Of a DNA stretch of 46,073 bases, positions 23,794-38,818 are shown piece after piece. Position 1 is the stretch's first letter, and each line of letters starts with the position of its first letter. Under the pieces are notes generated by a model. The model did not search any database and had not been told where the DNA came from. It was given only the letters and a program-made list of their open reading frames with translations. Origin of the DNA: a virus; IMG/VR virus record IMGVR_UViG_3300025122_003558, positions 1 to 46,073 of that record, one strand, 5' to 3'. The position numbers and the translations under genes are program-made.

Positions 23794-26700
23794 TTGAAAA
23801 AGTTTGAGGATTTTTTATCTCCTCAAAGATTTGTTGGGCTTCATGCTCATTCTGGGTTTAGCACATTTGATGGTCTAGGCCATCCGTCAAAACACATTGA
23901 TTTTTTGACGAGTGAACAACAAGGAATGGACGCGTGGGCTTTAACTGATCATGGGAATGGAAATGGATTAGCTCACGCCTATTCACATTTTTCGAAACTT
24001 AATAAAAAGGGGATCAAGTACAGACAACTGTATGGTGTCGAGTTTTACTTTGTTCCGTCCCTAGATGGATGGAGAGTTGACTACGAGGGGCACAAGCAGG
24101 AAATTAAAGACGCGAGATCGAACAGACAAAAACTGAAAAAAATTCTTGAGTCGACCGATATCGATGCTGACGAAGAGTCTGCTGGTGGGTTGATTATTGA
24201 GAACGAGGATGAGACAAAGTCTTTTGATGTTAACAAGGATGAGTGGAAGAGGAGATACCACCTTGTTGTGCTTGCCAAGAATAGAGTCGGACTTAGTAAT
24301 CTTTTCACTCTTGTTAAAAAATCTTACAAGGATGGCTTTTACCGATTCCCCAGGATTGATTTCAATCTTCTCAACCAACACAGTGAAGGACTTATTGTTT
24401 CAACTGCGTGTATTGGCGGGATTTATTCAAACAAGATCCTCAGAGGGAGATCACAAGGAAAATCAGAGGAAGAAATCGTCAAGGAGCTTTTGAACCTAAC
24501 GGACAGGTTCACTGATTGTGTTGGTGTTGAGAACTTTTTTCTAGAACTCCAGTTTAATTCTTTAGAAGCTCAACATCATGTGAACGAGTATCTGTTTAAA
24601 TGCGCCGAAAAATCTTCTGTTAAGCTTATTGCAACTGCTGATTCTCACTATCCAATGCCTGATCAGTGGGAATCTAGGGAGTTATACAGGAGGCTTGGGT
24701 GGATGAAGAAGGAAATTAAACCTCTTCCAAAATTTGAGGATCTCAAGTGTGAGTTGTATCCCAAGAACGCTGAACAGATGTGGGCTGAATTTGGAAGGCA
24801 TCACGGTAGTTACGATTTTTATCGAGGAAAAGAAGAGATTGTAAGGGAAGCTATTGAAAGAACACATGACATCGCTTGGGAAATGTGCACTGACACGTGG
24901 ATCGATATGGATGCTAAGCTTCCAAACTTTAGCACCTCAAAGATTTCAGCATTCAGTCAACTTGCGACAATCGTTAAGGAAAAGCTGGTAGAGAACAATT
25001 TAGATAAGGAACCAGCATATGTCGACAGGGCAAAAGAGGAACTTCAAGTTATTAAGTTAAAAGGGTTTGAAAACTACTTTTTAACGATGTATAAGATTTT
25101 TAACGAGGCCAAGAAGAGGACACTCTTGGGCCCCGGCCGGGGATCCGGAGCCGGATCTTTAGTAAATTACCTGCTTGAGCTAACTCAACTTGATCCGATC
25201 AAATATGACCTGTTATTTGAAAGGTTTATTAACCTTGGAAGAGCAGGGTTCCCCGATATTGATACCGACGCTGGAGACCGTGATGTACTTATAGATGTGT
25301 CAAGGGAGCTCTTTGGCGAGGAGAATGTTCTTCCTGTATCTAATTTCAATACCTTAAAATTGAAATCTCTTATAAAGGACATTGGAAAATTTTACGGTGT
25401 TCCGTTTGAGGATGTCAACACGGTTACTTCTAGATTGAGTCGAGAGGTCACTCCTCACGCAAAGGCTGATGATGTAGAAAAGTCCTACTTTATGCTTAAA
25501 CACGATGATTGCTTAAGATACTCGAAGACCTACTCTAGTTTTATGGAAAGATACACTGACGTATCTAAACATGTTGAGGGATTGTTTCTTGAAAATCGCT
25601 CAATTGGCCGGCATGCTGGTGGTGTTTTAATCTGTCCAAATCTTGAAAAGCACATGCCTGTTATCAGTGTCAGGGGTGAGCTTCAAACTCCTTGGGCTGA
25701 AGGCTTGAGCTATAGGAACCTCGAGGATAACGGATTTTTAAAGTTTGACTTTTTAGGCCTGTCTCTTCTAAAAATGGTTGAGGATTGTATACGCCTCATT
25801 TTGAAGAACAAGAGCGGTACTGTGCCAAGTTTTGACGAGATCAAGAAGTTTTTTGATGACAATGTTAATTGTCGGTTTCACGATCTCGACGATCAAAAAG
25901 TATTCAAATACGTTTATCACGAAGGAAGATTTCCCGCAATCTTTCAGTTTACCAATACTGGTGCTCGGAGGTTCTGCATGCAATCAAAACCAACCTCTAT
26001 CGAAGAGATTGGTACGATAACAGCGATATACAGGCCTGGCCCACTTCGAGCTAATGTGGATAAAAAGTACGTAAACGACAAGAATAACCCGGAAACTGTA
26101 AAGTATGATCATCCTATTATTAAGGAAATTTTAGAATCCACGTATGGACATATAACTTTCCAGGAACAGTTCATGAAGCTTGCTCAGAAACTATCGGGGT
26201 TTACCCCTGAGGAGTCTGACAAGATGAGAAAGACACTTGTTAAAAAGACTCACAGCACTGCTGACGGCGTAGAGCAGGCTCATGCTGATCTTAGAGAAAG
26301 GTTCGTTACGGGTGCAGAGTCTTTAAATGGAATCTCAAGAGAGATATCTGAAAGCCTTTTTGAAAAGATCAAGTACTTTTGTGCTTACGGTTTCAACAAG
26401 TCCCATGCTATCTCTTACGCCGTAGACTCCTACTACGCTGCTTGGCTGATGACCCACCATGAGAAAGAGTGGCTAGCAACTTGTTTGCAAACAGAGATGC
26501 AAAGCCCTGATGGTCTTTCTAAAATTATTTCAGAAATAAAGCAACTAGGGTATAATGTGCTTCCTGCGGATATAAATGAATCTGAGGATGTCTGGGTGTT
26601 CAGTGATCAGAAAAACTCTTTTGTGGCCCCGCTATCTGCTGTGAAAGGCATTGGTGAGAAGGCGGTTGAGGAGATCATGGAGAATCGACCGTATTACAGT

Positions 26701-27372
26701 TTGGATGACCTCTTTTACACCGATGACGGAACGTGGAAGCATTCGAAGATGAACAAGACGTGTCTTACTTCTCTGTGCAAGATTGGAGCCTTAAGTAATC
26801 TTTATGAGCTTAAAGAAAAAATTGTTGATAACCATCGACAGATTTATCTCATGATATCTGAGAACTATGAGATCATTAAAAAAGGAAGACATGGGATAAC
26901 AAAGACTCAATTTAAGAGAATGCAAAAATCCGGAGAATCCACCAAACCTATCATTGATTCTTTAATTTCTAAGTACGTGGGGGAAGGTGACTGGTCTCGA
27001 TCAGAAAAGATTGATTTGAGTTTTGAATATTCTTGCATGGTGGCCAACAATCTTTTATTTTCAGATAACGTTCTTGAAAAATTAAAAGAGACTCAGGTTC
27101 CTCCTATGTCTTCCTTAAAAGGAGGTGATCGAGGAATTGTCTGGTTTTGTATTAGTGAACTTATCCCCAGGGTGTCTAAAAATGGAAAGGTTTTTTACAG
27201 GGCAAAGACCGTAGATGATAACAATAATGTCCAGTGGTTGAGAATATGGGGAGACTCTAATAAGTTGGAGAAGTACACTATGTGGATGGCTGATGTTTCT
27301 AACGATCCTAACTGGGGTTGTTCTTCTAGCGTATCAAAGATAAGAAGGATTCCAACTGGGAGGGTAAATTGA
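23794..27372 (+). CDS. dnaE: DNA polymerase III alpha subunit (family C, DnaE-like)
   Basis: A 1192-residue family C polymerase. TTG 23794 is preceded by AAGGAGG. Domains in order: an N-terminal PHP domain (GLHAHSGFSTFDG and LTDHGNGNG); palm with GPGRGSGAGSLVNY and FPDIDTD (Asp488, 490, 492); fingers (ITAIYRPGPLR, FQEQFM, FNKSHAISYAVDSYYAAW); an HhH segment (LSAVKGIGEKAVEEI); and a C-terminal OB-like part (GIVWFCISELIPRV). Length matches E. coli DnaE (1160). It should need a sliding clamp; a clear beta-binding peptide was not identified and no clamp or loader genes are in the window. Finding a complete cellular-type replicase in a phage that also encodes a family A polymerase is unusual. Confidence 0.93.
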   Translation: MKKFEDFLSPQRFVGLHAHSGFSTFDGLGHPSKHIDFLTSEQQGMDAWALTDHGNGNGLAHAYSHFSKLNKKGIKYRQLYGVEFYFVPSLDGWRVDYEGHKQEIKDARSNRQKLKKILESTDIDADEESAGGLIIENEDETKSFDVNKDEWKRRYHLVVLAKNRVGLSNLFTLVKKSYKDGFYRFPRIDFNLLNQHSEGLIVSTACIGGIYSNKILRGRSQGKSEEEIVKELLNLTDRFTDCVGVENFFLELQFNSLEAQHHVNEYLFKCAEKSSVKLIATADSHYPMPDQWESRELYRRLGWMKKEIKPLPKFEDLKCELYPKNAEQMWAEFGRHHGSYDFYRGKEEIVREAIERTHDIAWEMCTDTWIDMDAKLPNFSTSKISAFSQLATIVKEKLVENNLDKEPAYVDRAKEELQVIKLKGFENYFLTMYKIFNEAKKRTLLGPGRGSGAGSLVNYLLELTQLDPIKYDLLFERFINLGRAGFPDIDTDAGDRDVLIDVSRELFGEENVLPVSNFNTLKLKSLIKDIGKFYGVPFEDVNTVTSRLSREVTPHAKADDVEKSYFMLKHDDCLRYSKTYSSFMERYTDVSKHVEGLFLENRSIGRHAGGVLICPNLEKHMPVISVRGELQTPWAEGLSYRNLEDNGFLKFDFLGLSLLKMVEDCIRLILKNKSGTVPSFDEIKKFFDDNVNCRFHDLDDQKVFKYVYHEGRFPAIFQFTNTGARRFCMQSKPTSIEEIGTITAIYRPGPLRANVDKKYVNDKNNPETVKYDHPIIKEILESTYGHITFQEQFMKLAQKLSGFTPEESDKMRKTLVKKTHSTADGVEQAHADLRERFVTGAESLNGISREISESLFEKIKYFCAYGFNKSHAISYAVDSYYAAWLMTHHEKEWLATCLQTEMQSPDGLSKIISEIKQLGYNVLPADINESEDVWVFSDQKNSFVAPLSAVKGIGEKAVEEIMENRPYYSLDDLFYTDDGTWKHSKMNKTCLTSLCKIGALSNLYELKEKIVDNHRQIYLMISENYEIIKKGRHGITKTQFKRMQKSGESTKPIIDSLISKYVGEGDWSRSEKIDLSFEYSCMVANNLLFSDNVLEKLKETQVPPMSSLKGGDRGIVWFCISELIPRVSKNGKVFYRAKTVDDNNNVQWLRIWGDSNKLEKYTMWMADVSNDPNWGCSSSVSKIRRIPTGRVN

Positions 27373-27914
27373 AATTTGAAATAAACATGGTTGTAATTGA
27401 AGGTTGTGATCTTGCGGGCAAATCTTCTCTTTTTCGGAGCCTACATAAAGAAACTGATATGAGATATAACATTCATGATCGTTCCTCCTTAACATGTCTT
27501 GTCTGCGCCCAGTTTTACGGAAGAGACGTGAAGTATTTTGAAAGAAGAGTTGAATCTCAAATGAGGAACTTAAGTAATGTTATTATTCTTTTGCACCCTA
27601 CCTTTGACGAGATTCTCCGAAGGTATGCGATTAGAGGAGATGAATTACACGATGAGAAAAGCTTAGAATCTATGTATGAACTATACGATAGACAGGTTAA
27701 ACGGTGGTCTGGATCTCCAAATATTGTCTTGTACAGAGAAGGAAGCTTAGATGAAATCACTTTATCTTGCTTCACAAAACTTAAAGAGATGGAAAAAATG
27801 ACAGCTGACAATGTAATGAAGATATCTAAAAACTCCTTGTCTCTAGAGTCAGGATATCATTTTGAACTTTTTGATGAGGATACTGGTCGTACCCGAAGCA
27901 TCCAGATTACATAG
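27369..27914 (+). CDS. P-loop nucleotide kinase, thymidylate-kinase-like
   Basis: A 181-residue protein starting at TTG 27369, overlapping the polymerase stop by four bases; ATG 27387 is an alternative. It has VVIEGCDLAGKSSLF, a Walker A motif with Lys18, followed by a Tyr/Asp/Arg-rich segment (NIHDRSSLTC) and LHPTFDEILRRY with RGDELHDEKS as a lid-like region. The 'E-G-x-D-x-x-G-K-S' P-loop is that of thymidylate and deoxynucleoside kinases. It probably phosphorylates dTMP or another dNMP on the way to dNTP. The C-terminal 45 residues (from about 135) are extra. Lying next to thymidine kinase, it would complete dT to dTDP. Confidence 0.7.
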   Translation: MKFEINMVVIEGCDLAGKSSLFRSLHKETDMRYNIHDRSSLTCLVCAQFYGRDVKYFERRVESQMRNLSNVIILLHPTFDEILRRYAIRGDELHDEKSLESMYELYDRQVKRWSGSPNIVLYREGSLDEITLSCFTKLKEMEKMTADNVMKISKNSLSLESGYHFELFDEDTGRTRSIQIT

Positions 27915-27935
27915 AAGGGTTCGAGGTTTAAAATC

Positions 27936-28499
27936 ATGTTAGAAAACCCACAGTTTGTAATTTTTACCGGCCCTATGTTCGGATCAAAGACGACGAAACT
28001 TTTAGGACTCCTTGATAGACTAAACTATCAAAAAAAGAAAGTTGCTGTTTTTAAGGCGTCTCTTGATGACAGGTATTCTAAGTCTGAGATTATTACTCAT
28101 TCTGGATCAACTCAGCCTGCAGTTTGTATATCTTCCGGAGCTGATATGCTGGAGTATCTTGCCAATCACTCAGAGGTCTATGAAGCTGTCGCAGTCGACG
28201 AGGTTTTTATGATAGATGGGATCGCTGATGTTCTAATATGGCTCTATAGAACAGGAACATCAGTCTTTGTGTCTTCTCTGACTTTTTCCTCCGCATGCGA
28301 TGTTTTTCCGGAGATGGAAAAAATTCTTCCCTGGGCCACTAAGATAGAAATGTGTCCGGCAGTTTGTACCACCTGTGGATCCGATGCGTTTTATACTTAC
28401 AAGAAACGAGACGATGGTAAGATGATATCTATAGGCGGCGACGATTTGTACGAGGCGAGATGCTGGAATCATCACAAGGTGAAGAGAGAGGTTGATTAG
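27936..28499 (+). CDS. tdk: Thymidine kinase, TK1 type
   Basis: A 187-residue protein with TGPMFGSKTTKLLGLLDRL at the start. TK1 enzymes normally read GPMFSGKST; here the residue before Lys18 is Ser rather than Gly. The rest fits: VAVFKASLDDRYS, VAVDEVFMIDG (family: V-D-E-A-Q-F), VSSLTFSSACDVFPEM and a zinc-binding lobe with CTTCGSDAFYTYK and ARCWNHH. TK1 makes dTMP from thymidine, a salvage route beside de novo ThyX. The swapped P-loop and the DEVF motif are deviations that might change activity; all other landmarks are intact. Confidence 0.83.
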   Translation: MLENPQFVIFTGPMFGSKTTKLLGLLDRLNYQKKKVAVFKASLDDRYSKSEIITHSGSTQPAVCISSGADMLEYLANHSEVYEAVAVDEVFMIDGIADVLIWLYRTGTSVFVSSLTFSSACDVFPEMEKILPWATKIEMCPAVCTTCGSDAFYTYKKRDDGKMISIGGDDLYEARCWNHHKVKREVD

Positions 28500-28501
28500 A
28501 T

Positions 28502-29575
28502 ATGACTGAGCCGTCAAGTGTTAATTGCATAATTTATCATGCTGACTGTACTGACGGATTTGGAGCTGCATATTCTGCATGGAAGCTTTTAGGAAATAGG
28601 GCTGAGTATCATGCGTGTAAGCACGGGACACCTCCGCCTGATGTTAAGGGAAAGTCTGTAGCTATTCTCGATTTTTCTTTTGACAATGCAACAATTAAGG
28701 AAATGATCAAAATTGCAGAAAGTCTCATTGTTATAGATCACCACAAGTCTTCCATGGTAGAGCTTCATGATATCACTAACACCATGTTTGACATGACAAA
28801 ATCAGGCGCCATGTTATCTTGGGAATTCTTTCATCCAGGAAAGGAGCCACCAAAGTTTATTCAGTACATTCAGGACAGGGATCTTTGGAAGTGGGAACTT
28901 CCTTACTCTAGAGAATTTTCAGCTGCTTTTGACATGATTCCCTTTGAGTTCGAGGAGTTTGAAAAGTACGAGGATGACTCTGTTTTCGATGACACTGTTA
29001 AGAGAGGATCCTACATTTTAGCTTACTCTAAGACCGTGATCAAAAAGGTGTGTGAAAAGGCATCGACCAGGAAGTTTGAAGGATTGGATGTCCTGGTTGT
29101 TAATGCTTCTCACTGGATATCTGAGATCGGATCACGACTCTCCCCTGATTGTGATTTTGCGATGATCTGGTACTATGATCACAATGATTACAAGATAAAA
29201 GTTAGCTTGAGGTCTTTTCATGAGACTGTTGATGTTTCTGAGATCGCTAAGAAATTTGGAGGCGGAGGTCACAAGAAGTCTGCTGGATTCACCCTTTTAC
29301 CCGATGCCCACGTTGATGACTTATTTGATCTTATCGACGTCGAGGATGAGGAGACGTTTACTGTTAATACTTTTAACGTTAGGAAAGAGCTTGAACAGTT
29401 AAAGGAAAAAATAGAGAAGGAAGTTGTAGATCCGCTTGTTGAAAAAGGGGAATCTGTTGATCTGTCTGGAATTAATTTGATTGAGGAACAGTTGACTGAG
29501 ATTGAAAAGAAATCTACTGTGACCAGCGAAGATAAAGATCCCGACATTATATCTAGAACGTCAGGAAGTCAATAA
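28502..29575 (+). CDS. DHH/DHHA1 family phosphoesterase
   Basis: A 357-residue protein. The DHH domain has IIYHADCTDGFGAAY (metal-binding Asp), VAILDFSF, and VIDHHKSS (the name-giving Asp-His-His), followed by FIQYIQDRDLWKWELP. The DHHA1 domain follows, with KKFGGGGHKKSAGF (Gly-rich substrate loop). After about residue 275 there is a charged helical tail (ELEQLKEKIEKEVVDPL). The family includes RecJ exonuclease, NrnA oligoribonuclease and cyclic-dinucleotide phosphodiesterases. The compact size and the QDRD motif favour an NrnA-like nanoRNase or pAp phosphatase over RecJ. A role in degrading cyclic-dinucleotide defence signals is possible but unproven. Confidence 0.82.
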   Translation: MTEPSSVNCIIYHADCTDGFGAAYSAWKLLGNRAEYHACKHGTPPPDVKGKSVAILDFSFDNATIKEMIKIAESLIVIDHHKSSMVELHDITNTMFDMTKSGAMLSWEFFHPGKEPPKFIQYIQDRDLWKWELPYSREFSAAFDMIPFEFEEFEKYEDDSVFDDTVKRGSYILAYSKTVIKKVCEKASTRKFEGLDVLVVNASHWISEIGSRLSPDCDFAMIWYYDHNDYKIKVSLRSFHETVDVSEIAKKFGGGGHKKSAGFTLLPDAHVDDLFDLIDVEDEETFTVNTFNVRKELEQLKEKIEKEVVDPLVEKGESVDLSGINLIEEQLTEIEKKSTVTSEDKDPDIISRTSGSQ

Positions 29576-29577
29576 TA

Positions 29578-30549
29578 ATGTCTGACATGTTTAAGCTAAC
29601 CAGCAAGGATGGAACCAATATACAGATGGAACATAATTCTAACTTAGTGATTGAAGCATTTTTAGATGCACTTAGAGAGGTCAACGCTCCCGGTCCTGGC
29701 GCGCCGTCTCTAGCAGTTTATGCACCCATGATACCTTTTGTCATAAATTTTACAAATTCTTATTATGCAAAGAATAGGTGTTTAGTATTGTTTGGCCCTA
29801 GGACCGGATCTCATCACCTTGTAGCAAATTTACACTATCAAGACGAATGTTTTTCTTTTGATGAGAGGGTTTTTTGTCCCACCGTTCAGACGAAAGACGT
29901 GTTCTTACAGGAAAATTCTAAGTCTCTAGAGAGGTTCATGAAATCTAAAACTGTGTTCTGGAAGAACCAGTGGGATAGGCCTTCCCAGGTTCAAGGAACT
30001 GGGCCGGTTTTTAACGAAGGGTTGTTAAATTTTTGCTGTGGTGCTTTAAATACATCAGTTATTTTTTGTCTAAGACATCCGTACCTAACGTACCTTTCTA
30101 GAAGAAAACTCTTTGAAAGAATTCCCGATCAAAAGGAGCATGACGTAACTGAACAGGACATGGTTGACTCATATGTGTGTTGTTTTAGACTTATCAAATT
30201 TTGTCATGATAGGGGATTTAAACACATGATTCATTTTCATGAGAAACTACTTAAAGAGAGAAATGAAACCATTTCTGGAATTCTTGATTTTGTTGGAGCT
30301 TCTAAAAAAGAAGTATTAGACTATGAAGATTATTTCAAGGATTCTGAAGTTTTGATTTCGAGAGGTTTTTATAATCCAGCTCGAAAGATAGAGCCTAAAG
30401 ACGAAGGTCCTGTCATGAGAAGTTCTAAGTCGAAAAAAATGATGCAGAGCATTATTTTAAAATGTAATGAATTAGAGCTTTTATCGCCAGGATTAGAGAA
30501 ATTTGAAAAATTCTATGAGGAACTATTGGCGGACAATGAAACACAATAG
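29578..30549 (+). CDS. Sulfotransferase-like protein
   Basis: A 323-residue protein. LVLFGPRTGSHHLVANL resembles the 5'-phosphosulfate-binding loop of PAPS-dependent sulfotransferases (normally R-S-G-S/T). VIFCLRHPYLTYLSRRKLF resembles their 3'-phosphate strand (R-x-P-x-x-x-x-x-S). HFHEKLLKERNETISGILDFVG resembles the usual 'Y-E-D-L ... I-L-x-F-L-G' end. The N-terminal 60 residues are less clear. Phage sulfotransferases may modify host glycans or virion parts; here the gene lies among nucleotide enzymes, so the acceptor cannot be guessed. An alternative is another P-loop kinase. Confidence 0.6.
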   Translation: MSDMFKLTSKDGTNIQMEHNSNLVIEAFLDALREVNAPGPGAPSLAVYAPMIPFVINFTNSYYAKNRCLVLFGPRTGSHHLVANLHYQDECFSFDERVFCPTVQTKDVFLQENSKSLERFMKSKTVFWKNQWDRPSQVQGTGPVFNEGLLNFCCGALNTSVIFCLRHPYLTYLSRRKLFERIPDQKEHDVTEQDMVDSYVCCFRLIKFCHDRGFKHMIHFHEKLLKERNETISGILDFVGASKKEVLDYEDYFKDSEVLISRGFYNPARKIEPKDEGPVMRSSKSKKMMQSIILKCNELELLSPGLEKFEKFYEELLADNETQ

Positions 30550-30958
30550 ACCTCCATGGCCTGAGATATGGATGCAGTTTGCGCACTCCATTTCAAGAAG
30601 ATCTGTGGATCCTAGGAGCAAGGTGGGAGCTGTCATTGTCACCGGAGACAATACACAAGTTCTCTCTGTTGGGTATAACGGAGACCACAAGGGTGGTCCC
30701 AATGTTGTAGAATCAGTTAATCCTGGTGAATCTGGATTGATACACGCTGAAATAAATGCTTTGTTAAAGTGCGATTATAATTGCCTGAAGAAAAAAATAA
30801 TGTACGTGACAACCTCACCCTGTTCTCTTTGTGCAAAAGCCATTGTTAATGCTGGTATATCTGAAGTCGTATACGATAATGACTACCGGTGTTCTAAGGG
30901 TTTACAGATTCTGCAAGAAGCTAGGGTTAAAGTTGCCCGGCATGAAGATAATTACTAA
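30536..30958 (+). CDS. dCMP deaminase
   Basis: A 140-residue zinc deaminase. ATG 30536 overlaps the previous gene by 14 bases. The zinc site is complete: IHAEINALLK (His70, catalytic Glu72) and TSPCSLCAKAI (Cys96, Cys99). The N-terminal SRRSVDPRSKVGAVIV and GYNGDHKG are the usual dCMP deaminase substrate segments. It converts dCMP to dUMP, the ThyX substrate, and T4 cd does the same job. Size is a little shorter than T4 dCMP deaminase (193), with the core intact. It closes the nucleotide block before the unknown-gene region. Confidence 0.88.
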   Translation: MKHNRPPWPEIWMQFAHSISRRSVDPRSKVGAVIVTGDNTQVLSVGYNGDHKGGPNVVESVNPGESGLIHAEINALLKCDYNCLKKKIMYVTTSPCSLCAKAIVNAGISEVVYDNDYRCSKGLQILQEARVKVARHEDNY

Positions 30959-30977
30959 TAGTAATTAAAAGGTTCTT

Positions 30978-31250
30978 GTGAAAATGGATAAGATCACCAA
31001 GTTTGATGTGCTTCGTATGATAAGCTCTCAAAAATCGTTTTTTAAAAGAGAGGGCTTGATGTCTCTTGGAAAATCTAAGTCTCCTGGGATAATAGTTATA
31101 TCTCCAGGATTGAAAGTCTTTCATAAAAAAACGAGGTACTCTTATCAGGTTTACAAAGCAACGGCCGACGGAGTCCTACTCACAATCCCAGATTCTAAGG
31201 AGATTTTTTTCGTGTCTAAAAAGGACTTTGAAAAGGACTACATTCTTTAA
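30978..31250 (+). CDS. Small hypothetical protein (90 aa)
   Basis: Starts at GTG 30978 (six bases after AAAAGG) or ATG 30984. The product begins with a basic stretch (DKITKFDVLRMIS), then has a predicted beta-rich part (GIIVISPGLKVFH, YSYQVYKATADGVLLTIP) ending KDFEKDYIL. It looks like a small single-domain protein of mostly beta strands with a basic N-terminal helix. The family is not recognised. 'FDVLRMISSQ' is faintly like the tag motif of the next genes but lacks its pattern of charges, so I do not count it. Confidence 0.6.
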   Translation: MKMDKITKFDVLRMISSQKSFFKREGLMSLGKSKSPGIIVISPGLKVFHKKTRYSYQVYKATADGVLLTIPDSKEIFFVSKKDFEKDYIL

Positions 31251-31267
31251 TAGTAAAGGACAAAATA

Positions 31268-31957
31268 GTGAAAAAAAAAGATGTTCAAAAAATCATAAAA
31301 GATACGTTTAGCAACTACAAGGAAGAACCTGATCAACTATCAGAATCCTATGTAGCTTCTATTAAGTCTTTTTCTCTTCCAACAGAAAGGATGAGCAAAA
31401 AAACAAAGTCTATGCTATTAAAAGATTATGAATCTCATGTGGATGCTTTCAACAAAATAAGTGCCATGTTGGACACTTCTAACAGAGAGAGTTCTAATTC
31501 TGATTACTCTGGTTACAGATCTTTAAAGATTGATGAAATTTATAATATGAACTCTATTTACATGACTGAGTTGTATTTGTCAAACATTAGCGATCTAACA
31601 AGCGAAATTTTAATGGAATCTTTATCCTTTATGAAGCTTGAAAGAGACTTTGGAACTTTTGAAAACTGGCAGAGAGATTTTATAGCTTGTGGAATGTCGG
31701 CGAGATCTGGTTACGTCGTCACAGCGTTTTCTACATATCTACAGAGATACGTGAATTTTTTCACCGATTCGACTAATTCTAACGTTCCTATTGGGACATA
31801 TCCAACTATAGTTTTAAGAGTAGATGAAATTTCTTATGATAAGGACTACGCAAACAACAAGAAAGCATATATTTACAATATGATGAAAGAACTTAATTGG
31901 GACATTATTGAACAGAGGTTTAATAAGTCTGAAAAAATTGCGAAATCTATTAGGTGA
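31268..31957 (+). CDS. Superoxide-dismutase-fold protein lacking metal ligands, with N-terminal tag
   Basis: A 229-residue protein from GTG 31268. Residues 1-17 (KKKDVQKIIKDTFSNY) form the tag-like helix. From about residue 34 the sequence follows Fe/Mn superoxide dismutase: FSLPTERMSKKT (SOD: L-P-Y...). Then come ERDFGTFENWQRDF (SOD: F-G-S-F-E-x-F-K-x-x-F), SGYVV (S-G-W), YPTIVLRVDE (P-I-L-G-L-D-V-W-E-H) and KDYANNKKAYI with ELNWDIIEQRF at the end. All four metal ligands look lost: the first His region reads MLLKDYE, the second has Glu101, and the D-x-W-E-H block reads RVDEI (Arg184, Ile188). So the fold is kept but enzyme activity is unlikely. A structural or virion role is my inference. 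The fold call comes from reading motifs and would need profile confirmation. Confidence 0.72.
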   Translation: MKKKDVQKIIKDTFSNYKEEPDQLSESYVASIKSFSLPTERMSKKTKSMLLKDYESHVDAFNKISAMLDTSNRESSNSDYSGYRSLKIDEIYNMNSIYMTELYLSNISDLTSEILMESLSFMKLERDFGTFENWQRDFIACGMSARSGYVVTAFSTYLQRYVNFFTDSTNSNVPIGTYPTIVLRVDEISYDKDYANNKKAYIYNMMKELNWDIIEQRFNKSEKIAKSIR

Positions 31958-31966
31958 GGAGAAACC

Positions 31967-32182
31967 ATGAAAATTTTAGATAAGGAACTTCTTAAAAGAA
32001 TTATTCTTGAGGAGAAGGCGAAGCTTGAAAAGGATATCCAGGAAGGAAGGGTCAGTCTTTCTTCTAAGGAAAACTTGGACCATGAGAACAAAAAGTCTTC
32101 TGAGAAAGAGGAACTTCCTAACGCTGTTATGGAAGACTACGACCGGTGGACTAAACTATCTGGGATCTTTTTAAAGGATTAG
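31967..32182 (+). CDS. Small tagged hypothetical protein (71 aa)
   Basis: ATG 31967 is nine bases after the previous stop and follows GAGGAG. The N-terminus is MKILDKELLKRIILEEKAKL, the tag pattern (L-L-K-R-I-I-x-E-E). The rest is a charged, low-complexity stretch (SSKENLDHENKKSSEKEE) and a short C-terminal helix with MEDYDRWTKLSGIF. There is no obvious folded domain, so it is mostly tag plus linker. It could be a packaged peptide or core component. It sits between the SOD-fold gene and another tagged gene, all within a few bases, so they are probably co-expressed. Confidence 0.62.
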   Translation: MKILDKELLKRIILEEKAKLEKDIQEGRVSLSSKENLDHENKKSSEKEELPNAVMEDYDRWTKLSGIFLKD

Positions 32183-32183
32183 A

Positions 32184-32735
32184 ATGCGCCTCACACTTGA
32201 CGTCTTGAGGCAGATTATTTCGGAAGTCGTCGACGGCGCTGATTCTCCGGATAAGGATGAGCTGTCTCTTACATCTGTCGATAACCAGATAGACTCGATA
32301 TTAATTGGATTTGAATCTGAGTCCATGTCTGAAAAAGGCTTAAGTGAATTTTCATCTTTCACATTAAGAGATCTTCTTCTTGAACAAGAAGACGAGGACG
32401 CGTCGGAGGAAGAACCAGAAAAGGAAGTGACCGATAGCTCTGCAAGATCTGAAGAAGAGTCTGTCGATCCTAATGAACCCGCTTTAGACGTTGATGAGTT
32501 TGTTTCAAAAGTTGGAAGACTTATTCTCAACTATGATAACCTACTTGACATCCCAAGTGTCATAATCAACAGGGCCAAAAATTACTTATCAAGTAGCGGG
32601 TACGGTGATGAAATTATTGAAAGTTTTCAGGATGAACTTTTTGATCGTTTTGGACCGGATATAGGTGTCGATTTTGATGGGCCCTCCGCCCCCATCGCGA
32701 GCGGAGCAGGACCTCTTGGAGGAAGCGCAGCATAA
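32184..32735 (+). CDS. Tagged acidic protein with helical C-terminal domain (183 aa)
   Basis: Begins MRLTLDVLRQIISEVVDGAD, a clear tag (L-R-Q-I-I-S-E). A second tag-like copy, FTLRDLLLEQED, lies at about residues 57-68, followed by an acidic linker (EDEDASEEEPEKE). Residues about 100-155 form a small helical domain: LDVDEFVSKVGRLILNYDNLL, then PSVIINRAKNYLSSSGYG. The C-terminus is Gly/Ala-rich. Two successive tags, each ending in a Glu that could be a cleavage point, suggest stepwise processing like T4 core proteins. The domain family has no known function that I recall. It overlaps the next gene by one base. Confidence 0.65.
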   Translation: MRLTLDVLRQIISEVVDGADSPDKDELSLTSVDNQIDSILIGFESESMSEKGLSEFSSFTLRDLLLEQEDEDASEEEPEKEVTDSSARSEEESVDPNEPALDVDEFVSKVGRLILNYDNLLDIPSVIINRAKNYLSSSGYGDEIIESFQDELFDRFGPDIGVDFDGPSAPIASGAGPLGGSAA

Positions 32736-33028
32736 TGTCCACTTTTGATTCTGTTCTTGGGTTTAAAAAAAGTGTTCACATAAAACTCAATTCAGATACA
32801 CATTCAGGATTTAGAATTTCTTTGTTTGAAAAAAAATTATCAATGCAAGAAACATTTGAGGAATTTGCCAGTAGAGTTTCTCAGAAGGATCCTGTTGCTA
32901 TGAAAATCATAGATGAACTAGTTGACAAGAAAAGGAAAGGACGGGTGAGAAAAGCTGTTGAGCATTCCGATGCTTCTTCGCTTTTTGACATCATTGAATC
33001 CCAAAGTCCTTTAAGGGATGATTTATGA
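32735..33028 (+). CDS. Hypothetical protein, possible ribbon-helix-helix-like fold (97 aa)
   Basis: ATG 32735 overlaps the previous stop by one base (TAATG). The core reads VHIKLNSDTHSGFRISLFEKK, then LSMQETFEEFASRV, a strand followed by two helices, somewhat like ribbon-helix-helix DNA-binding proteins, in which a beta strand reads the major groove. A basic patch follows (DKKRKGRVRKAVEH). It may be a small DNA-binding or assembly regulator. Its position inside the late-looking region argues for a role tied to virion genes. The fold suggestion is tentative. Confidence 0.55.
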   Translation: MSTFDSVLGFKKSVHIKLNSDTHSGFRISLFEKKLSMQETFEEFASRVSQKDPVAMKIIDELVDKKRKGRVRKAVEHSDASSLFDIIESQSPLRDDL

Positions 33029-33291
33029 TTTCTGGCTGGGTGAGAAAAATTGCTAAGAACGAGTTCGCAACCCTGGCTGCGGGTATCGCTCTTGTTACCG
33101 AGAAACTATCTGAGCTTTACGCAATGCATGAAAAGGTTGCCAATGCCTGTTTAGAAAATAGACAGATTATTAATATGATGGCGGAAATGCACTCGTCAAT
33201 GATGCAAGAAGTTTCGAAGCAGATTAACGAAGATAATCTTAAAACCTCTTTAATGCCTGTCGACCCGTCAGACAAGGACTTTATAAACTAA
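33025..33291 (+). CDS. Small helical hypothetical protein (88 aa)
   Basis: ATG 33025 overlaps the previous stop (ATGA). The product is MISGWVRKIAKNEFATLAAG, followed by long amphipathic helices rich in Met (INMMAEMHSSMMQEV). The hydrophobic stretch FATLAAGIALV is too short for a firm membrane span. No family recognised. It immediately precedes three small membrane proteins and may belong with that cassette, for example as an antiholin-like partner, but nothing in the sequence proves this. Confidence 0.55.
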   Translation: MISGWVRKIAKNEFATLAAGIALVTEKLSELYAMHEKVANACLENRQIINMMAEMHSSMMQEVSKQINEDNLKTSLMPVDPSDKDFIN

Positions 33292-33473
33292 TGAAACACT
33301 TGCTAGATCAAGGATTACAAAAACTTATTTCACGCAAGCTTCTTGCTTGGGCAACGGCAACCGGACTCTTAGCATTCGCAGATTTAACATCTGGTGACTG
33401 GGTGATCATTACTTGTGTTTACATTGGAGGCCAAACTGTGGTTGACACTGTTGAAAGGCTTAGAAAAGCATAG
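33291..33473 (+). CDS. Small membrane protein, holin-like (60 aa)
   Basis: ATG 33291 overlaps the previous stop by one base. The sequence has a basic N-terminus (QKLISRKLL), a hydrophobic segment (LLAWATATGLLAFADL), a short polar turn (TSGDW) and a second hydrophobic segment (VIITCVYIGGQTVV), ending in charged residues. Two close membrane spans in 60 residues fit class II/pinholin-like phage holins, which form lesions in the inner membrane at lysis time. The genes after it encode a membrane-anchored coiled-coil protein and an exported protein, consistent with a lysis cassette. No endolysin is visible nearby. Confidence 0.6.
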   Translation: MKHLLDQGLQKLISRKLLAWATATGLLAFADLTSGDWVIITCVYIGGQTVVDTVERLRKA

Positions 33474-33475
33474 AG

Positions 33476-33790
33476 ATGAAGAAGAAGTTTTTAAATAGGA
33501 TTAAAAAGTACTGGTGGATTATTCTAACCTTAGTCTCCCTCTTTGCTTTGTTTTTAGCAGTTTTTCTACCACGACGATCTCGGAATGTAGTTAGTTCATT
33601 ATCAGAGACATTTGCCACAAAGGCTCAGGTAGAGGATCAAGCATATGATACTAAGGTTCTAATTGCTAAGCACGAGTCTGGGGAGCAGAAAGCTGTCTTT
33701 AAGGCTCGGATGTCAGAAATTGAGAAAGTTTCAGATACCAAGGAGAGGCTAGCTCGGCTCATACAACTTAAAAAAGAAGTTATGGGATGA
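33476..33790 (+). CDS. Membrane-anchored helical protein, inner-membrane spanin-like (104 aa)
   Basis: Basic N-terminus (MKKKFLNRIKKYW), one strong membrane span (WIILTLVSLFALFLAVFL), then a long charged helical domain that would lie outside the inner membrane (TKAQVEDQAYDTKVLIAK, KERLARLIQLKKEV). This is the layout of i-spanins (Rz), which act in the last step of lysis in Gram-negative hosts. It overlaps the next gene by four bases, as Rz/Rz1 pairs often do, though Rz1 is usually nested. Other single-span virion or superinfection proteins are possible. Confidence 0.5.
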   Translation: MKKKFLNRIKKYWWIILTLVSLFALFLAVFLPRRSRNVVSSLSETFATKAQVEDQAYDTKVLIAKHESGEQKAVFKARMSEIEKVSDTKERLARLIQLKKEVMG

Positions 33791-34206
33791 CTAAATTTTT
33801 AACCTCTCTTGTCCTATGTGTTTCGATCCTGCTTCCAGGAACTCTCTTCGCAGATGAAATTGTTCAGTTTGAGGACATGCCTGTCGAGTACACGATGGGT
33901 GATAACACCTACGTTGGAATCCTCGTGTCCGAGGATGAGTACAAAAGGATGGTAGACGCTACCAGAGAACTTCAGATTGATCTGGCACTTTCTCAGGCGA
34001 CACTACAGGCTTTTCAGGAAAGATACGAAACCCAGATGTTTTTGAAAGATCAGCACATTGGAATTCTTGAAAAGGAAGTACAAAGAACTGACACGTGGTT
34101 CTATAGGCATAAGGGTGGTATTGGATTGGCTGTTGGATTTATCGTAGGAGCAGCTGTAGTCACAGGTGTTACTTACGCTGTTAACCAACCGTCTCCGGGT
34201 CTTTAA
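33787..34206 (+). CDS. Exported protein with C-terminal membrane span, spanin-like (139 aa)
   Basis: ATG 33787 overlaps the previous stop (ATGA). The N-terminus is a signal peptide (FLTSLVLCVSILLPGTLFA) with likely cleavage before Asp-Glu and no lipobox. A periplasmic part follows, with a predicted coiled coil (about 65-100: LQIDLALSQATLQAFQERYE). After HKGG comes a C-terminal membrane span (GIGLAVGFIVGAAVVTGVTY). An exported helical rod tethered at one end resembles unimolecular spanins, except that the N-terminal lipid anchor is missing. Together with the two genes before it this suggests a lysis module. The 55-base gap after it contains the ribosome-binding site of the next gene. Confidence 0.52.
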   Translation: MTKFLTSLVLCVSILLPGTLFADEIVQFEDMPVEYTMGDNTYVGILVSEDEYKRMVDATRELQIDLALSQATLQAFQERYETQMFLKDQHIGILEKEVQRTDTWFYRHKGGIGLAVGFIVGAAVVTGVTYAVNQPSPGL

Positions 34207-34261
34207 TTTATTGTTCAATAATTGACCCTTGCGAGATAATTACTCTTGAGGAGTTTTTATT

Positions 34262-35542
34262 GTGAGAGTTGTCGTGGATCGATCCGCCATTGAAGACTTT
34301 ATTAGGGAAGTCACCGATGTTTCATCGGAAAGTCCCCCTGCTAATATTCCAGAACCCGTGGCACCGACTAGCTTACCAATAGAAGCTCAACCTAAAGCCA
34401 TCATAGACATGTCCGGAATCGCCCCTCCTATTAGAGATGAAGAGTATGTTCCGGCAAATAATTACGACCTAAGCTATGCTACTAGCGCTCTTTCAATGCA
34501 TGTGCCCCCCGAAAAAGTTGAAAAATTTTACAGGATTGTTAGAAAACTTGTACTAGACGTCATTACACAAAACAGGGAAGAACAAAAATCTCCGGAGTTA
34601 GAAAGCATGGATGAACGAATACTAAAAGAAGATGTTAAACTTATTCTTAAGGTGCTATCCGAGGCATCGGAGGAAGAGATCGAGGCCATGGCATCAAAGC
34701 TAGGTCTTAAGAAGGATCTTGACAAAGAGGAAGAGGAAGAGGACGATGCTCCTGTTCCTGCCGCCTCAGACGTAGTTGACTGGGAGGACATTCGACGGGA
34801 TGCGGAGGAACTTGGACTCGTGGGAGATCTTCCAGGACAGTTTAAGACCGCACCGAAGACTGTCAGCGCTCTGACAAACGTGACCGGCTGGATGAGAAAG
34901 AGGCTTGGAACGAGAAAGTTCGATCCGGATACCCAGATGAAACTAGAAGAGATTTCAAACATGTCAAACATCGTGTTCAACTCTCTTGTCAACATGTTCA
35001 ACAAGCCCTACGATCCTGCCGGCGACTTTTCCGACCTCCACAGAAAGAACGTTGCTTACCGGGTTGTCTTTAGTTTCTTCGTTGAAAACACCCTTCAGGA
35101 CTTGTTTGGGATAAAGTCAACTAACCTTGCCGTAGCGATGGAGAAGATCTCGAAAGATTTTGAGGAAGCTGGAATGGATCAAAAGAAGGCAACAAGGGCT
35201 GCTTTAGATGAGGTCTACACAGGCTTAAGACAACTTAATGTCAGCATGAAAGAGGCATACGATACCTTTAATGATAACTTCAAGTTAATGTTTGTTGATG
35301 AGAGTAGCCCTTCCTACATTGGTATCGGAATGGATGAAGTTGAAAATCTCGATGACACAGAGAGGAAAGAACTAGCCACCAAGATCGGCGCGCCAAGCGA
35401 TAGTGTCGAGTCGATTCAGGATGTTCTTTTTGATAAAGTCTTCAGTGGACCTGGAATGAAGGTTGCCCTGGAGTACATGTCTGTCCTTGAAAGTTCTTAC
35501 GACAAAGCTGAGACTGCACTAAAGAAGTCATCCGGTCAATAG
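34262..35542 (+). CDS. Tagged structural-type protein (426 aa)
   Basis: GTG 34262 follows TTGAGGAG. The N-terminus has RSAIEDFIREVTDVSSES, a weaker version of the tag (I-E-D-F-I-R-E). A Pro-rich linker follows (about 25-60), then a helical region with FYRIVRKLVLDVI, an acidic run (DKEEEEEDDAP) near 155-165, and a large helical C-terminal domain (200-420: GWMRKRLGTRKF, MSNIVFNSLVNMFNKPYD). The family is not recognised. Size, acidic linkers and neighbours suggest a head-interior or core protein processed during maturation. It is followed within eight bases by the lipoprotein gene. Confidence 0.58.
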   Translation: MRVVVDRSAIEDFIREVTDVSSESPPANIPEPVAPTSLPIEAQPKAIIDMSGIAPPIRDEEYVPANNYDLSYATSALSMHVPPEKVEKFYRIVRKLVLDVITQNREEQKSPELESMDERILKEDVKLILKVLSEASEEEIEAMASKLGLKKDLDKEEEEEDDAPVPAASDVVDWEDIRRDAEELGLVGDLPGQFKTAPKTVSALTNVTGWMRKRLGTRKFDPDTQMKLEEISNMSNIVFNSLVNMFNKPYDPAGDFSDLHRKNVAYRVVFSFFVENTLQDLFGIKSTNLAVAMEKISKDFEEAGMDQKKATRAALDEVYTGLRQLNVSMKEAYDTFNDNFKLMFVDESSPSYIGIGMDEVENLDDTERKELATKIGAPSDSVESIQDVLFDKVFSGPGMKVALEYMSVLESSYDKAETALKKSSGQ

Positions 35543-35549
35543 TTGAACC

Positions 35550-37157
35550 TTGGTTTTAAAACCAAGTAAAAACATATGTAATTTAGTGGATAGTCGCTTT
35601 TATTACACGTGGATAGTCGCTTTATCTCTCGTATTTGTATCCGGATGCAGCGATTTTTCACTTCATAAAGTTGAAGATCTTTCTCCTGAGATCGAGGTAA
35701 CGCCCACTATAGTAAATTTTGGAAACTTAAACGCCGCCGGCGATCTTGGATTAGAGACTGTTGTAGTTAAAAACATTGGAACAAGAAATTTAATTATTGA
35801 CAACATAAAAATATCCGATCAACCCTCTGTGTTTGCTGTCACTTCGACTGCAACGGATGTCTTGGAACCACAAGAAGAGACGTACTTTGAAGTGTTTTAC
35901 GATCCAACAACGTACTCTATCGACATGTCAGTTGCCACCGTTTCATCTAACGATCCGGACCTTCCTGAAGTTGAGGTTTTTTTGATAGGAGAAGGATCAG
36001 CCCCGGTTATCCAAGTCACACCACAGAACCATGATTTTGGAGATGTTACGATTGGATGTGAAATAGACTTAGAGGTTGTAATTTCCAACATCGGGGATGT
36101 CGATCTTCAGGTTGACAATTTAGATTATTTTGTTTCTTTTCCAACAAATTTTTCTCTTAATGAAAATTTTATCTATAATGGGAATTTTCCTTGGAACATC
36201 CCTCCAGGGGGATCAAACCCGTTTTACATAAAGTATCTTCCAGATGACATGTCTCATGATACCGGCTGGGTTGATGTTCACTCAAGCGATCCCGTGATTC
36301 CTGTAATTACTGCTGACCAGACAGGAAACGGAGAGACTAATCAAGTAGCCTACGATCAATTTGAGCAGCAGGATTTGTCAAATGCTGATGTTCTCTTTGT
36401 TGTTGATAATTCTTGTTCCATGGGCCAGGAGCAAGCTTCTCTTGCTAATAACTTTAATTCTTTTATCAGTGTATTTATGCTGAGTGGAGTTGACTATCAC
36501 ATTGGGGTCATTACAACCGACAACCAAAGCCTTAGGGGCGATGTTATAACTTCCACCCATCCCGATCCTCAAGGTGAATTTTCAAACCAAGTACAAGTGG
36601 GAGTCCTAGGAAACGCCAACGAGACCGGCCTGGCCTTTGCAAAGTCTGCAACTTCTCCTGGTGGTGAAGCTTCTCCTGGAAGTGCGTTTTTCAGACCAAC
36701 CGCGAAGATGTCCATAATCTTCGTGTCAGACGAGAAGGATCATTCTATAGGCTTACCTTCAACTTATAGTTCCCATTTTTCTTCACTTAAATCAAGTCCT
36801 AACTTGATCTCTGCACATGCTGTTAGTGGTGATTATCCTAACGGGTGTCAAGGTGCTGAATTTGGCGACGGTTATTATGACGTTGTTCAAAATTTACACG
36901 GATCATTTGTATCAATTTGTTCAAATGATTGGGGAAGCCAGATGGAACACTTAGCAAGGGAATCAATGTTAACAGATACTTTTTATTTATCTGAGCAGGC
37001 TGTTCCTGGTAGTATTGAGGTCTGGGTCGATGGAAGCTATAGCTTGAATTGGATCTATGATACTATGGCAAACTCCGTTATCTTTGATAGTTTTAGCATT
37101 CCGTCCCAAGGTCAGATGATTGATATTGAGTACGCTGTGTTTGGAGACTGTCTGTAG
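35550..37157 (+). CDS. Lipoprotein with two choice-of-anchor-D-like domains and a vWA domain
   Basis: Up to 535 residues from TTG 35550; GTG 35586 (12 codons in) gives a neater signal peptide. Either way WIVALSLVFVSGC is a lipoprotein signal with the lipobox Cys at residue 33. Two Ig-like repeats follow (VTPTIVNFGNLNAAG and VTPQNHDFGDVTIGC), the pattern of choice-of-anchor D/HYDIN-type domains. Then comes a von Willebrand A domain with a MIDAS loop VLFVVDNSCSMGQEQ (Asp286-x-Ser-x-Ser) and IIFVSDEKDHS. Proteins of this design are common on the surface of myxobacteria and related deltaproteobacteria. In a phage it could alter the infected cell surface, block superinfection, or sit on the virion. 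Transfer from a host is likely. Confidence 0.8.
   Translation: MVLKPSKNICNLVDSRFYYTWIVALSLVFVSGCSDFSLHKVEDLSPEIEVTPTIVNFGNLNAAGDLGLETVVVKNIGTRNLIIDNIKISDQPSVFAVTSTATDVLEPQEETYFEVFYDPTTYSIDMSVATVSSNDPDLPEVEVFLIGEGSAPVIQVTPQNHDFGDVTIGCEIDLEVVISNIGDVDLQVDNLDYFVSFPTNFSLNENFIYNGNFPWNIPPGGSNPFYIKYLPDDMSHDTGWVDVHSSDPVIPVITADQTGNGETNQVAYDQFEQQDLSNADVLFVVDNSCSMGQEQASLANNFNSFISVFMLSGVDYHIGVITTDNQSLRGDVITSTHPDPQGEFSNQVQVGVLGNANETGLAFAKSATSPGGEASPGSAFFRPTAKMSIIFVSDEKDHSIGLPSTYSSHFSSLKSSPNLISAHAVSGDYPNGCQGAEFGDGYYDVVQNLHGSFVSICSNDWGSQMEHLARESMLTDTFYLSEQAVPGSIEVWVDGSYSLNWIYDTMANSVIFDSFSIPSQGQMIDIEYAVFGDCL
35586..35623 (+). repeat. 15 bp direct repeat, 23 bases apart, in the lipoprotein signal region
   Basis: GTGGATAGTCGCTTT occurs at 35586-35600 and again at 35609-35623. 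The first copy contains the in-frame alternative start GTG. The 23-base period is not a multiple of three, so the two copies are translated in different frames. It may be a recent short duplication that built or altered the signal peptide. Confidence 0.6.
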
Positions 37158-37187
37158 TTATTACTTTGTGTGGTTAAGATATTAAAA

Positions 37188-37592
37188 ATGAAATTCACTT
37201 CCCTTAAATCGCTGTTAAAAGAAAACTTGGATGCATCGTCTAGTCTAAACAAGAGGATATTTGAAAAAATTGGAATAAGAGATCGTCCGGAAGTTAATAA
37301 ACAACTTGAAGAGGAAGAAAAAGAGAACCGATGGGAAGTGATTAGTGATCCAACTAGATTAATCAGGAAGTACAAGTTTCCAGATTATAGAGTCTTACAG
37401 GAATTCGTCATCGACGTCTTAGATTTTCAGGGTGATCTCAACCATCACGGAACCTTGCACGTAAATCCTGACGAGGTGATTGTTGAAGTATATACTCATG
37501 ATATTAATGACATCACAGAGGTTGATCACGAATACTCAAAAATTGTTGAGGAAATCTACTTAGACGTGAAGGATCGAAAATCAAAATGGTAA
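37188..37592 (+). CDS. Pterin-4a-carbinolamine dehydratase-like protein with N-terminal tag
   Basis: A 134-residue protein from ATG 37188 (an upstream GTG at 37170 is possible). Residues 1-15 (MKFTSLKSLLKENLD) are the tag motif. A charged linker runs to about residue 45. The rest is a PCD domain: RWEVISDPTRLIRKYKF, then FQGDLNHHGTLHV (His86-His87) and VEVYTHDINDITEVDHEY (His104, Asp105). The H-H-x-x-x ... T-H-D pattern is the pterin-binding active site; the usual Pro after H-H is Gly here. The family recycles oxidised pterin cofactor or acts as a transcription coactivator, and PCD genes are known in marine phages. With a virion-type tag it might be carried in the capsid. Confidence 0.78.
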   Translation: MKFTSLKSLLKENLDASSSLNKRIFEKIGIRDRPEVNKQLEEEEKENRWEVISDPTRLIRKYKFPDYRVLQEFVIDVLDFQGDLNHHGTLHVNPDEVIVEVYTHDINDITEVDHEYSKIVEEIYLDVKDRKSKW

Positions 37593-37969
37593 GTTCTTCC
37601 GAGGGATCGTTTTTTGCTAGCGAGTCAATTAGAGATAAGATCGACATGTCTCAGTTTGAAACTTCGGAAACTGACGATCCCCCTGTTGACCTTAGTGATT
37701 TTTTCATAGTTGACCTGGAGGACGGGAGCCAAGTCAAAACTGAATTTCTTGCAGTAGACTTTTGTCAAGATGAAGTTAGGATAACTATGGCCTGTTGGAA
37801 TCCGGAGGATATAAAAAAGATCATGAGTTCTCGTGAGGCTAGTTATTGCATATCTTTGTCCGGACAAGATGTTCTAAGTGGGTCCGGAGATATTACAAAT
37901 ACCTCAGTTAGGATTGCCAATGGAGCTTACCTTCTTGAAATTGCTTTTTCTAGCCGTGAGAATACTTAA
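37586..37969 (+). CDS. Hypothetical beta-rich protein (127 aa)
   Basis: ATG 37586 overlaps the PCD-like gene by seven bases. The first 45 residues are polar and acidic. The rest alternates hydrophobic and polar residues as in a beta sandwich (DFFIVDLEDGSQVKTEFLAV, EVRITMACWN, VRIANGAYLLEIAFSS). There are no catalytic motifs, signal peptide or tag. It could be a small structural decoration or tail protein. Not recognised. Confidence 0.6.
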   Translation: MVSSSEGSFFASESIRDKIDMSQFETSETDDPPVDLSDFFIVDLEDGSQVKTEFLAVDFCQDEVRITMACWNPEDIKKIMSSREASYCISLSGQDVLSGSGDITNTSVRIANGAYLLEIAFSSRENT

Positions 37970-37983
37970 ATGTGGAGGCGTAC

Positions 37984-38184
37984 GTGAGAAAAGAACAACA
38001 AGAGCTTATGTTTGACAAGTTCATGGATGACATTGTTAAACGAGAGGACCAAAGTAAGCAGAAGGATCCTGGAGACCCTGAGGAAGTTACCCTATCTAGG
38101 GAGTACTACATTAAGTACAGAGAAACTTCTAAGAATCTAATCAAGGTAGGAAAAAATGAAGACTCTAAGACTAACAAGCGCTAA
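37984..38184 (+). CDS. Small charged hypothetical protein (66 aa)
   Basis: GTG 37984 is five bases after GGAGG (37974-37978), better placed than the in-frame GTG at 37972, which overlaps that site. The product is RKEQQELMFDKFMDDIVKRE, a polar linker, then SREYYIKYRETSKNLIKVGK. It is highly charged and helical. The end overlaps the start of the next gene by 29 bases and supplies its ribosome-binding site (AGGTAGG). No family recognised. It may be a small adaptor or structural protein. Confidence 0.55.
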   Translation: MRKEQQELMFDKFMDDIVKREDQSKQKDPGDPEEVTLSREYYIKYRETSKNLIKVGKNEDSKTNKR

Positions 38185-38818
38185 AAATATCCGGACATTT
38201 TTGGAATCTACGGTCGTTAAGGCCGTTGAACAGGCAAGGTCTGAGACCGGTATTGAGTCCCAAAAGCAAAGTAACTATTCGAAAAAGTCTAAAGATTTTA
38301 ATAGCATGATATCAGAAGTAGAGGAGGAGGACGTCGAGGCTTCCCCGGAGGAGGACGTTGAGGCAGAACCGGAGGAGGAATCCCCCGTTGAAGACGAAGC
38401 ACCCGAACCACCGGAAGAAGAAGGTGGCCTAGAACCTGAACCTGAGACTGAAGAATTTGCTTACTCTTTGGGATCCCTGGTGGATCAGATAAACTCTATG
38501 AGGTCTGGCAAGTCAGCAACTCGTGGAGCGATTAACTCTGAGTTACAAGTATATTTTGGTGGGTTGGACGATGCTGAAAAAGTTGCATTGACAAAGTTTA
38601 TGAAAGGCATCGCTCAAGTTTTAACTGGATTGTCAGGGGAAAAGGCAGTTGAACCTGAAGATGAACCTGATCCAGTGGATGTCGTATTTGTTGGGAAAGT
38701 CGAAGAACCCCCGGAAGAACCTGAAGAGGGAGAAGAGGATGCAACGACACCAATTAAAGTTGCAGAGGAGATGGTTCGAAATGCCATACACTCGCTCCTT
38801 AACAAGGAGCGACGATAG
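38156..38818 (+). CDS. Acidic tagged protein, scaffold/core-like (220 aa)
   Basis: Starts MKTLRLTSAKNIRTFLESTVVK, a tag variant (I-R-T-F-L-E). Residues about 58-105 are a Glu/Pro-rich run of imperfect repeats (VEASPEEDVEAEPEEE). A helical domain follows (FAYSLGSLVDQINSMRSGK, ALTKFMKGIAQVLTGL) and a second acidic linker (EEPEEGEEDATTP), ending MVRNAIHSLLNKERR. Acidic, low-complexity, helical proteins with cleavage-like sites are typical of prohead core proteins such as T4 gp68/gp22, though no homology is claimed. The last codons encode one arm-loop-arm of a perfect RNA hairpin. Confidence 0.58.
   Translation: MKTLRLTSAKNIRTFLESTVVKAVEQARSETGIESQKQSNYSKKSKDFNSMISEVEEEDVEASPEEDVEAEPEEESPVEDEAPEPPEEEGGLEPEPETEEFAYSLGSLVDQINSMRSGKSATRGAINSELQVYFGGLDDAEKVALTKFMKGIAQVLTGLSGEKAVEPEDEPDPVDVVFVGKVEEPPEEPEEGEEDATTPIKVAEEMVRNAIHSLLNKERR
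38792..38812 (+). terminator. Strong stem-loop at the end of the acidic protein gene
   Basis: TCGCTCCTT, loop AAC, AAGGAGCGA: a perfect 9 bp stem with a three-base loop spanning the last codons of the gene. No T-run follows, so it is not a classic intrinsic terminator. It may stabilise the mRNA 3' end, mark a processing site or slow ribosomes. The AAGGAG inside the stem also looks like a hidden Shine-Dalgarno. Confidence 0.4.

Follow-up and report, generated by a model that had tools for sequence, protein, structure and literature searches.

The 46,073-nucleotide stretch of viral DNA examined here (positions 1 to 46,073 of IMG/VR record IMGVR_UViG_3300025122_003558; hereafter, the window) carries a gene for a predicted surface lipoprotein with a metal ion-dependent adhesion site (MIDAS). 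A preliminary description, made from the letters alone, had placed this open reading frame (ORF) at 35550-37157, where we also find it, and had read it as a phage lipoprotein with VWA and choice-of-anchor-D-like domains. The gene comprises the following features:

35550..37157, + strand: type-A VWA (VWA-A) lipoprotein gene, 535 amino acids from TTG 35550 (ORF call and translation); GTG 35586 is the likelier start
35586..35648, + strand: lipoprotein signal peptide ending in the lipobox VSG/C, with Cys33 encoded by TGC 35646-35648 and Ser at +2 (sequence; kept in relatives)
35685..35954, + strand: immunoglobulin (Ig)-like domain 1, choice-of-anchor D or HYDIN-ASH type, residues 46-135 (NCBIfam, Pfam, AlphaFold model)
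36006..36335, + strand: Ig-like domain 2, residues about 153-262 (choice_anch_D match in two stretches; AlphaFold model)
36369..36977, + strand: VWA or integrin-I-like domain, residues 274-476 (AlphaFold model; structural alignment)
36405..36419, + strand: MIDAS motif DNSCS, residues 286-290 (alignment of relatives)
36621-36623 and 36729-36731, + strand: further invariant acidic residues E358 and D394 (alignment)
36978..37154, + strand: C-terminal beta domain, residues 477-535, with a near-invariant Cys at its end (alignment, AlphaFold model; layout as in Bd0875, PMC11003981)

The motifs on which the preliminary description relied are all present: the lipobox VSGC (residues 30-33), the two repeats VTPTIVNFG (residues 50-58) and VTPQNHDFG (residues 157-165), and an intact MIDAS. 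Its domain assignments hold as well, and the C-terminal beta domain (about 477-535) is one that it overlooked. The NCBIfam model choice_anch_D (NF012200) matches in two stretches at 82.1 bits (cut-off 45; E 3.8e-23), and a Pfam HYDIN/ASH Ig family matches with E 5.7e-12. Pfam VWA (PF00092) stays below its gathering score (14.3 vs 23.8 bits), and it is the AlphaFold model that reveals the VWA fold, its VWA part aligning to the integrin alpha2 I domain over 183 residues (Z 17.0, root-mean-square deviation 2.9). The model has a mean predicted local distance difference test score of 85.5 and a predicted template modeling score of 0.49, at which domain orientations are uncertain. Its Ig parts resemble HYDIN/CEP192-type domains; the list of fold matches covers mainly residues 274-476 and is uninformative on other folds. 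The protein thus has the VWA fold, the DxSxS motif and the further acidic residue that characterize a VWA domain with MIDAS (PMC11003981), and VSG/C supplies the type II signal peptide and lipobox Cys of a bacterial lipoprotein. DNSCS and D394 are invariant among 18 aligned viral members. In the alignment, a Glu that is likewise invariant (E358) appears to occupy the third MIDAS position, in the second metal loop, where Thr is usual.

Relatives and insertion site

Relatives of the protein are encoded at 25 loci in viral contigs (28-47% identity), with 0 to about 5 Ig-like domains ahead of a common unit of VWA and C-terminal domain. All 44 non-redundant viral relatives retain DxSxS. A strict lipobox rule is passed by 34 of the 44, compared with 4 of the 423 other ORFs in the same loci that are 150 amino acids or longer; one of the failing members is truncated, and most others show a lipobox by eye. 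Given this conservation, the observed architecture is not due to chance, and lipidation of the signal peptide, which the preliminary description had named as a point on which its reading could fail, is strongly indicated by the lipobox.

Matches in cellular genomes depend on the query: an alignment of three sequences found none, and one of 18 sequences found 145 matching stretches. Among the matches listed (80 of 145), nearly all lie in Myxococcota, deltaproteobacterial or unresolved proteobacterial metagenome-assembled genomes (MAGs). The best are Myxococcota MAG proteins that share the same architecture over the full length at 38-41% identity, which agrees with the earlier view that this is a design of myxobacterial surface proteins. 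At twelve such loci (L030-L041) the neighbours are chromosomal wherever they could be read. Strong matches occur in all 39 genomes of one Myxococcota order, and seven genomes of the Myxococcota type hold 13-30 paralogues each, as opposed to usually one or two copies per phage. The lipoprotein therefore gives a lead to the host, Myxococcota or relatives, and the suggestion made earlier to that effect is reasonable, although a family this common across Myxococcota cannot prove it; the window holds no tRNA genes and so offers no tRNA-based host inference. Four of the MAGs with Myxococcota-type VWA lipoproteins (L056, L058, L071, L102) are labelled Klebsiella pneumoniae, and these labels look wrong.

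In a phylogenetic tree, the window protein falls inside a viral clade of 13 members (support 100/98), next to a small clade of aquatic cellular proteins. L028 and the short type-B proteins are placed elsewhere in the tree, so the family has passed between phages and bacteria more than once. Two type-B MIDAS lipoproteins (L009:11824-12786 and L017:12137-13099) form a very deep branch, and their genes overlap an S1 protease gene by a few bases.

The gene lies between two core genes of the phage lineage, both assigned from collinear related loci:

34262..35542, + strand: upstream flank of the insertion site, a lineage core gene with no function assigned
37170..37592, + strand: downstream flank, a core gene resembling pterin-4a-carbinolamine dehydratase (also Pfam), with ATG 37188 a possible start

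Neither the upstream flank (34262-35542) nor window positions 3060-5903 retrieved close relatives as single queries, and Megablast of window positions 1-25000 against GenBank phages gave no matches; related contigs surfaced only through protease and DHH markers. A 52.8-kb contig (L129/L190) is collinear with window positions 23794-38818, and the same block is shared by most of the 64 contigs found in a DHH-marker scan. Homologues of the two flanks lie -36 to +35 nucleotides apart in 42 of the 43 loci that hold both. The exception, L199, carries a 317-amino-acid type-B MIDAS lipoprotein between them, where the window has a type-A protein. The same site, empty in the other loci, has thus received two insertions, both of them MIDAS lipoproteins but from different subfamilies, and the window gene is accessory, inserted at a defined position. 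Over whole lineage records, MIDAS lipoproteins sit at varied positions in 22 of 46, some of which are near-duplicates and most of which are fragments (one of the 22 by a marginal match only); the 22 include all six records above 200 kb.

The gene might be a passing acquisition from a host, without a selected function in this phage: it is an orphan in the window fragment and a single insertion of a kind of gene that the presumed hosts commonly carry. We consider this the least probable of the explanations weighed here, since the viral type-A copies group in a supported clade apart from most cellular ones, the motifs are fully conserved, every record over 200 kb has a lipoprotein, and MIDAS lipoproteins entered the same site on two occasions.

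Linkage to exported proteases in related phages

In related phages, the lipoprotein genes recur near genes for two protease families. The first is a trypsin-like S1 family (C1; Trypsin_2 E 6.3e-12) with a conserved His, Asp and Ser triad, present in 17 of the 19 records of the first set; the second is a matrixin-like Zn protease with HExxHxxG in 22 of 22 members. A search outward from the protease yielded 56 non-redundant S1 groups, of which 32 have a VWA gene in their flanks, 25 of them within 300 bp on the same strand; these 25 close pairs represent three arrangements in separate parts of the protease tree. As this set was collected through the protease, type-A groups found independently of it provide a fairer test, and 20 of 28 such groups have an S1 or matrixin-like protease within 3 kb (10/17 from the first viral search, 10/10 from the lineage search, 0/1 for the window). 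In nine of 11 lineage records that hold both an S1 protease and a lipoprotein, the genes are within 2.1 kb of each other; random placement gave a mean of 0.83 records within range and reached nine in 0 of 200,000 trials, although the 11 records are related and the nine do not count as independent events. The 1.26 Mb of lineage loci that surround the DHH marker, a lenient control as this block is core, contain one S1 and zero Zn proteases. Some gene runs combine both lipoprotein types with the protease, in the order S1-B-A (L254-L256) or A-B-S1 with other ORFs in between (L269), and a TlpA-like thioredoxin lipoprotein abuts several lipoprotein copies. No S1 protease was found in the flanks (up to 4 kb) of 80 cellular lipoprotein loci, unlike in the related phages; distant trypsin-like proteins do exist elsewhere in cellular genomes.

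Other neighbours bear on what the protein might do. It could be an accessory to lysis, working with the protease at a late stage, in the periplasm or at the outer membrane, and adding to the breakage of the envelope by endolysin and holin. At L018/L019 an endolysin-like gene (peptidoglycan-binding and VanY; L018:6007-7368) lies just upstream of the lipoprotein gene and a small coiled-coil or transmembrane gene and an S1 protease lie downstream, and at L029 the next gene downstream encodes an N-acetylmuramoyl-L-alanine amidase (Amidase_3, 9388-10134). The phages L018 and L029 are distantly related. The pattern is limited to these loci: most other copies have no endolysin nearby (Amidase_3 occurs in 1 of 19 records), the window copy has none that is recognizable, and the neighbours are mostly metabolic or of unknown function. 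We therefore reject a general lysis-cassette reading, and regard a lysis role for the window protein as unlikely.

A virion adhesin or fibre whose lipobox-like signal is incidental is a more improbable account still. Genes resembling tail-fibre or baseplate genes are found close to some relatives (a neighbour in L267 matches a baseplate family with E 9.6e-6), and among 50,697 GenBank phage records, in which neither the S1 protease nor VWA-B has a match, the window lipoprotein is matched through its Ig-like parts, some in annotated tail fibres at 26-31% identity, and by one weak partial VWA match. Known virion fibres, which the preliminary description had said would refute it if they were close homologues, are absent from the close homologues. 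Against a virion location, terminase and tail sheath genes are tens of kilobases from the lipoprotein genes where found, no virion-structural family is among the 25 PHROG families that rank highest for 111 neighbour proteins, the lipobox is conserved far above background, and an exported, lipidated protein is hard to fit into a virion built in the cytoplasm.

A candidate surface-remodelling module

Both the export of the lipoprotein and its genomic linkage to proteases are well supported. We give an even chance to the most likely reading, that the window protein is an accessory exported envelope lipoprotein that, with the proteases of related phages, makes up a surface-remodelling module combining MIDAS docking and proteolysis. 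More tentatively, and with a lesser though real chance of being right, the MIDAS lipoproteins of large marine phages, type A with an Ig-like stalk and the short type B, could serve an exported S1 or Zn protease of the phage as integrin-like docking subunits, in some cases together with a thioredoxin-like lipoprotein, and selected host surface proteins would be processed during infection. The exported lipoprotein of the preliminary description stands, and the protease linkage makes a module of adhesin and protease, and not a surface protein acting by itself, the likely mechanism.

Bacterial lipoproteins are exported and lipidated through Sec, Lgt and LspA. Given its signal peptide and lipobox, the protein made in the infected cell would be exported by the host and lipidated at Cys33, and it would then be anchored in the envelope, most likely in the outer membrane. 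Under the E. coli +2 rule, Ser at this position would allow sorting to the outer membrane, but the rule need not apply in the present host. The two Ig-like domains would form a stalk bearing the integrin-I-like VWA domain. A metal site of the MIDAS kind suggests that this domain catches and releases a surface or periplasmic ligand in a metal-dependent manner. The linkage in related phages suggests that docking is coupled to proteolysis at the surface: the lipoprotein may dock on or gather targets, which a physically associated S1 or matrixin-like protease, of the kinds known from related phages, would trim. The phage would probably benefit through removal of its receptors, leading to superinfection exclusion or sparing progeny from re-adsorbing to debris, or alternatively through loosening of surface structures for release.

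Several observations weigh against this remodelling module. The window's 46-kb fragment holds no S1, Zn or TlpA-like partner; L129/L190 has the protease and no lipoprotein in its 52.8-kb record; seven type-A loci (L021, L023, L024, L026-L029) have no protease within 3 kb; and the tail-fibre-like and baseplate-like neighbours noted above point elsewhere.

The protein can also be compared with known systems, which raise a further possibility. The Bdellovibrio adhesins Bd0875 and Bd1483 (NF052240) are surface lipoproteins with a lipobox, in which N- and C-terminal segments together form a small beta domain that houses the VWA domain as an insertion (PMC11003981). The window protein, a predicted surface lipoprotein, has the same layout, but scores 43.5 bits against an equivalog cut-off of 700, has two extra Ig-like domains and is protease-linked in related phages. 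CglD, a Myxococcus gliding lipoprotein (NF033765), and its relatives belong likewise to a lipoprotein class with VWA and are locally similar around the MIDAS (35.1 bits, under the 400-bit cut-off), whereas the window protein is much shorter and has a different host context. A displayed host-type MIDAS adhesin might cause infected cells to aggregate, to attach to particles or to new hosts, or to give up gliding or predation, and so help the phage to spread. The close architectural match to host adhesins, the expansion of the homologous family in presumed hosts, and the requirement of Bd0875 MIDAS residues for efficient prey invasion (PMC11003981) speak for such manipulation of adhesion, but it leaves the repeated protease linkage unexplained and its host is unproven; we hold it to be distinctly unlikely, slightly more so than a role in lysis.

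Among phage proteins, the comparison is with Llp, the superinfection-exclusion lipoprotein of phage T5, which is likewise a phage-encoded envelope lipoprotein made in the infected cell. Llp is small, blocks FhuA from the periplasmic side (PMC9586334), and has no VWA domain or protease partner. MIDAS lipoproteins and phage envelope lipoproteins are known kinds; a phage-borne MIDAS lipoprotein with linkage to exported proteases turned up neither among the GenBank phages nor in the literature searched, which contained no paper on phage VWA lipoproteins or their protease linkage. If correct, the module would be a new route, integrin-like docking plus proteolysis, by which a phage reworks the outer surface of its host, here in giant marine phages of which no cultured member was found.

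Other genes and the translation start

Elsewhere in the window, positions 31268-31957 encode an iron/manganese superoxide dismutase C-terminal domain protein (PF02777, E 1.1e-12) that is conserved across the phage lineage. A phage GroEL (42980-44590; PHROG E 5e-157) and a ClpP-like protease (18595-19203) belong to families that recur in about 15 related protease/lipoprotein loci. Many window proteins, among them those at 31268, 32184, 34262, 37188, 38156, 39151 and 39446, share short N-terminal helices (LRQIISEV, LRQLIRKTLNE, LREFIRRSL), and similar N-termini recur in related phages. These may be a capsid-targeting tag, of the kind known from T4.

The annotated start of the lipoprotein gene, TTG 35550, lies inside an 18-bp palindrome (CTTGGTTTTAAAACCAAG, 35548-35565) whose folding is not unusually stable (z -1.29). 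GTG 35586 would give a 20-residue signal peptide, the length seen in relatives; neither codon has a clear ribosome-binding site, and the lipobox is retained whichever is used. An exact 15-nucleotide direct repeat, GTGGATAGTCGCTTT, occurs at 35586 and 35609 (23 nucleotides apart; span 35586-35623), at the GTG start and in the signal peptide. A change by one repeat unit would shift the frame, so that a slippage switch is conceivable.
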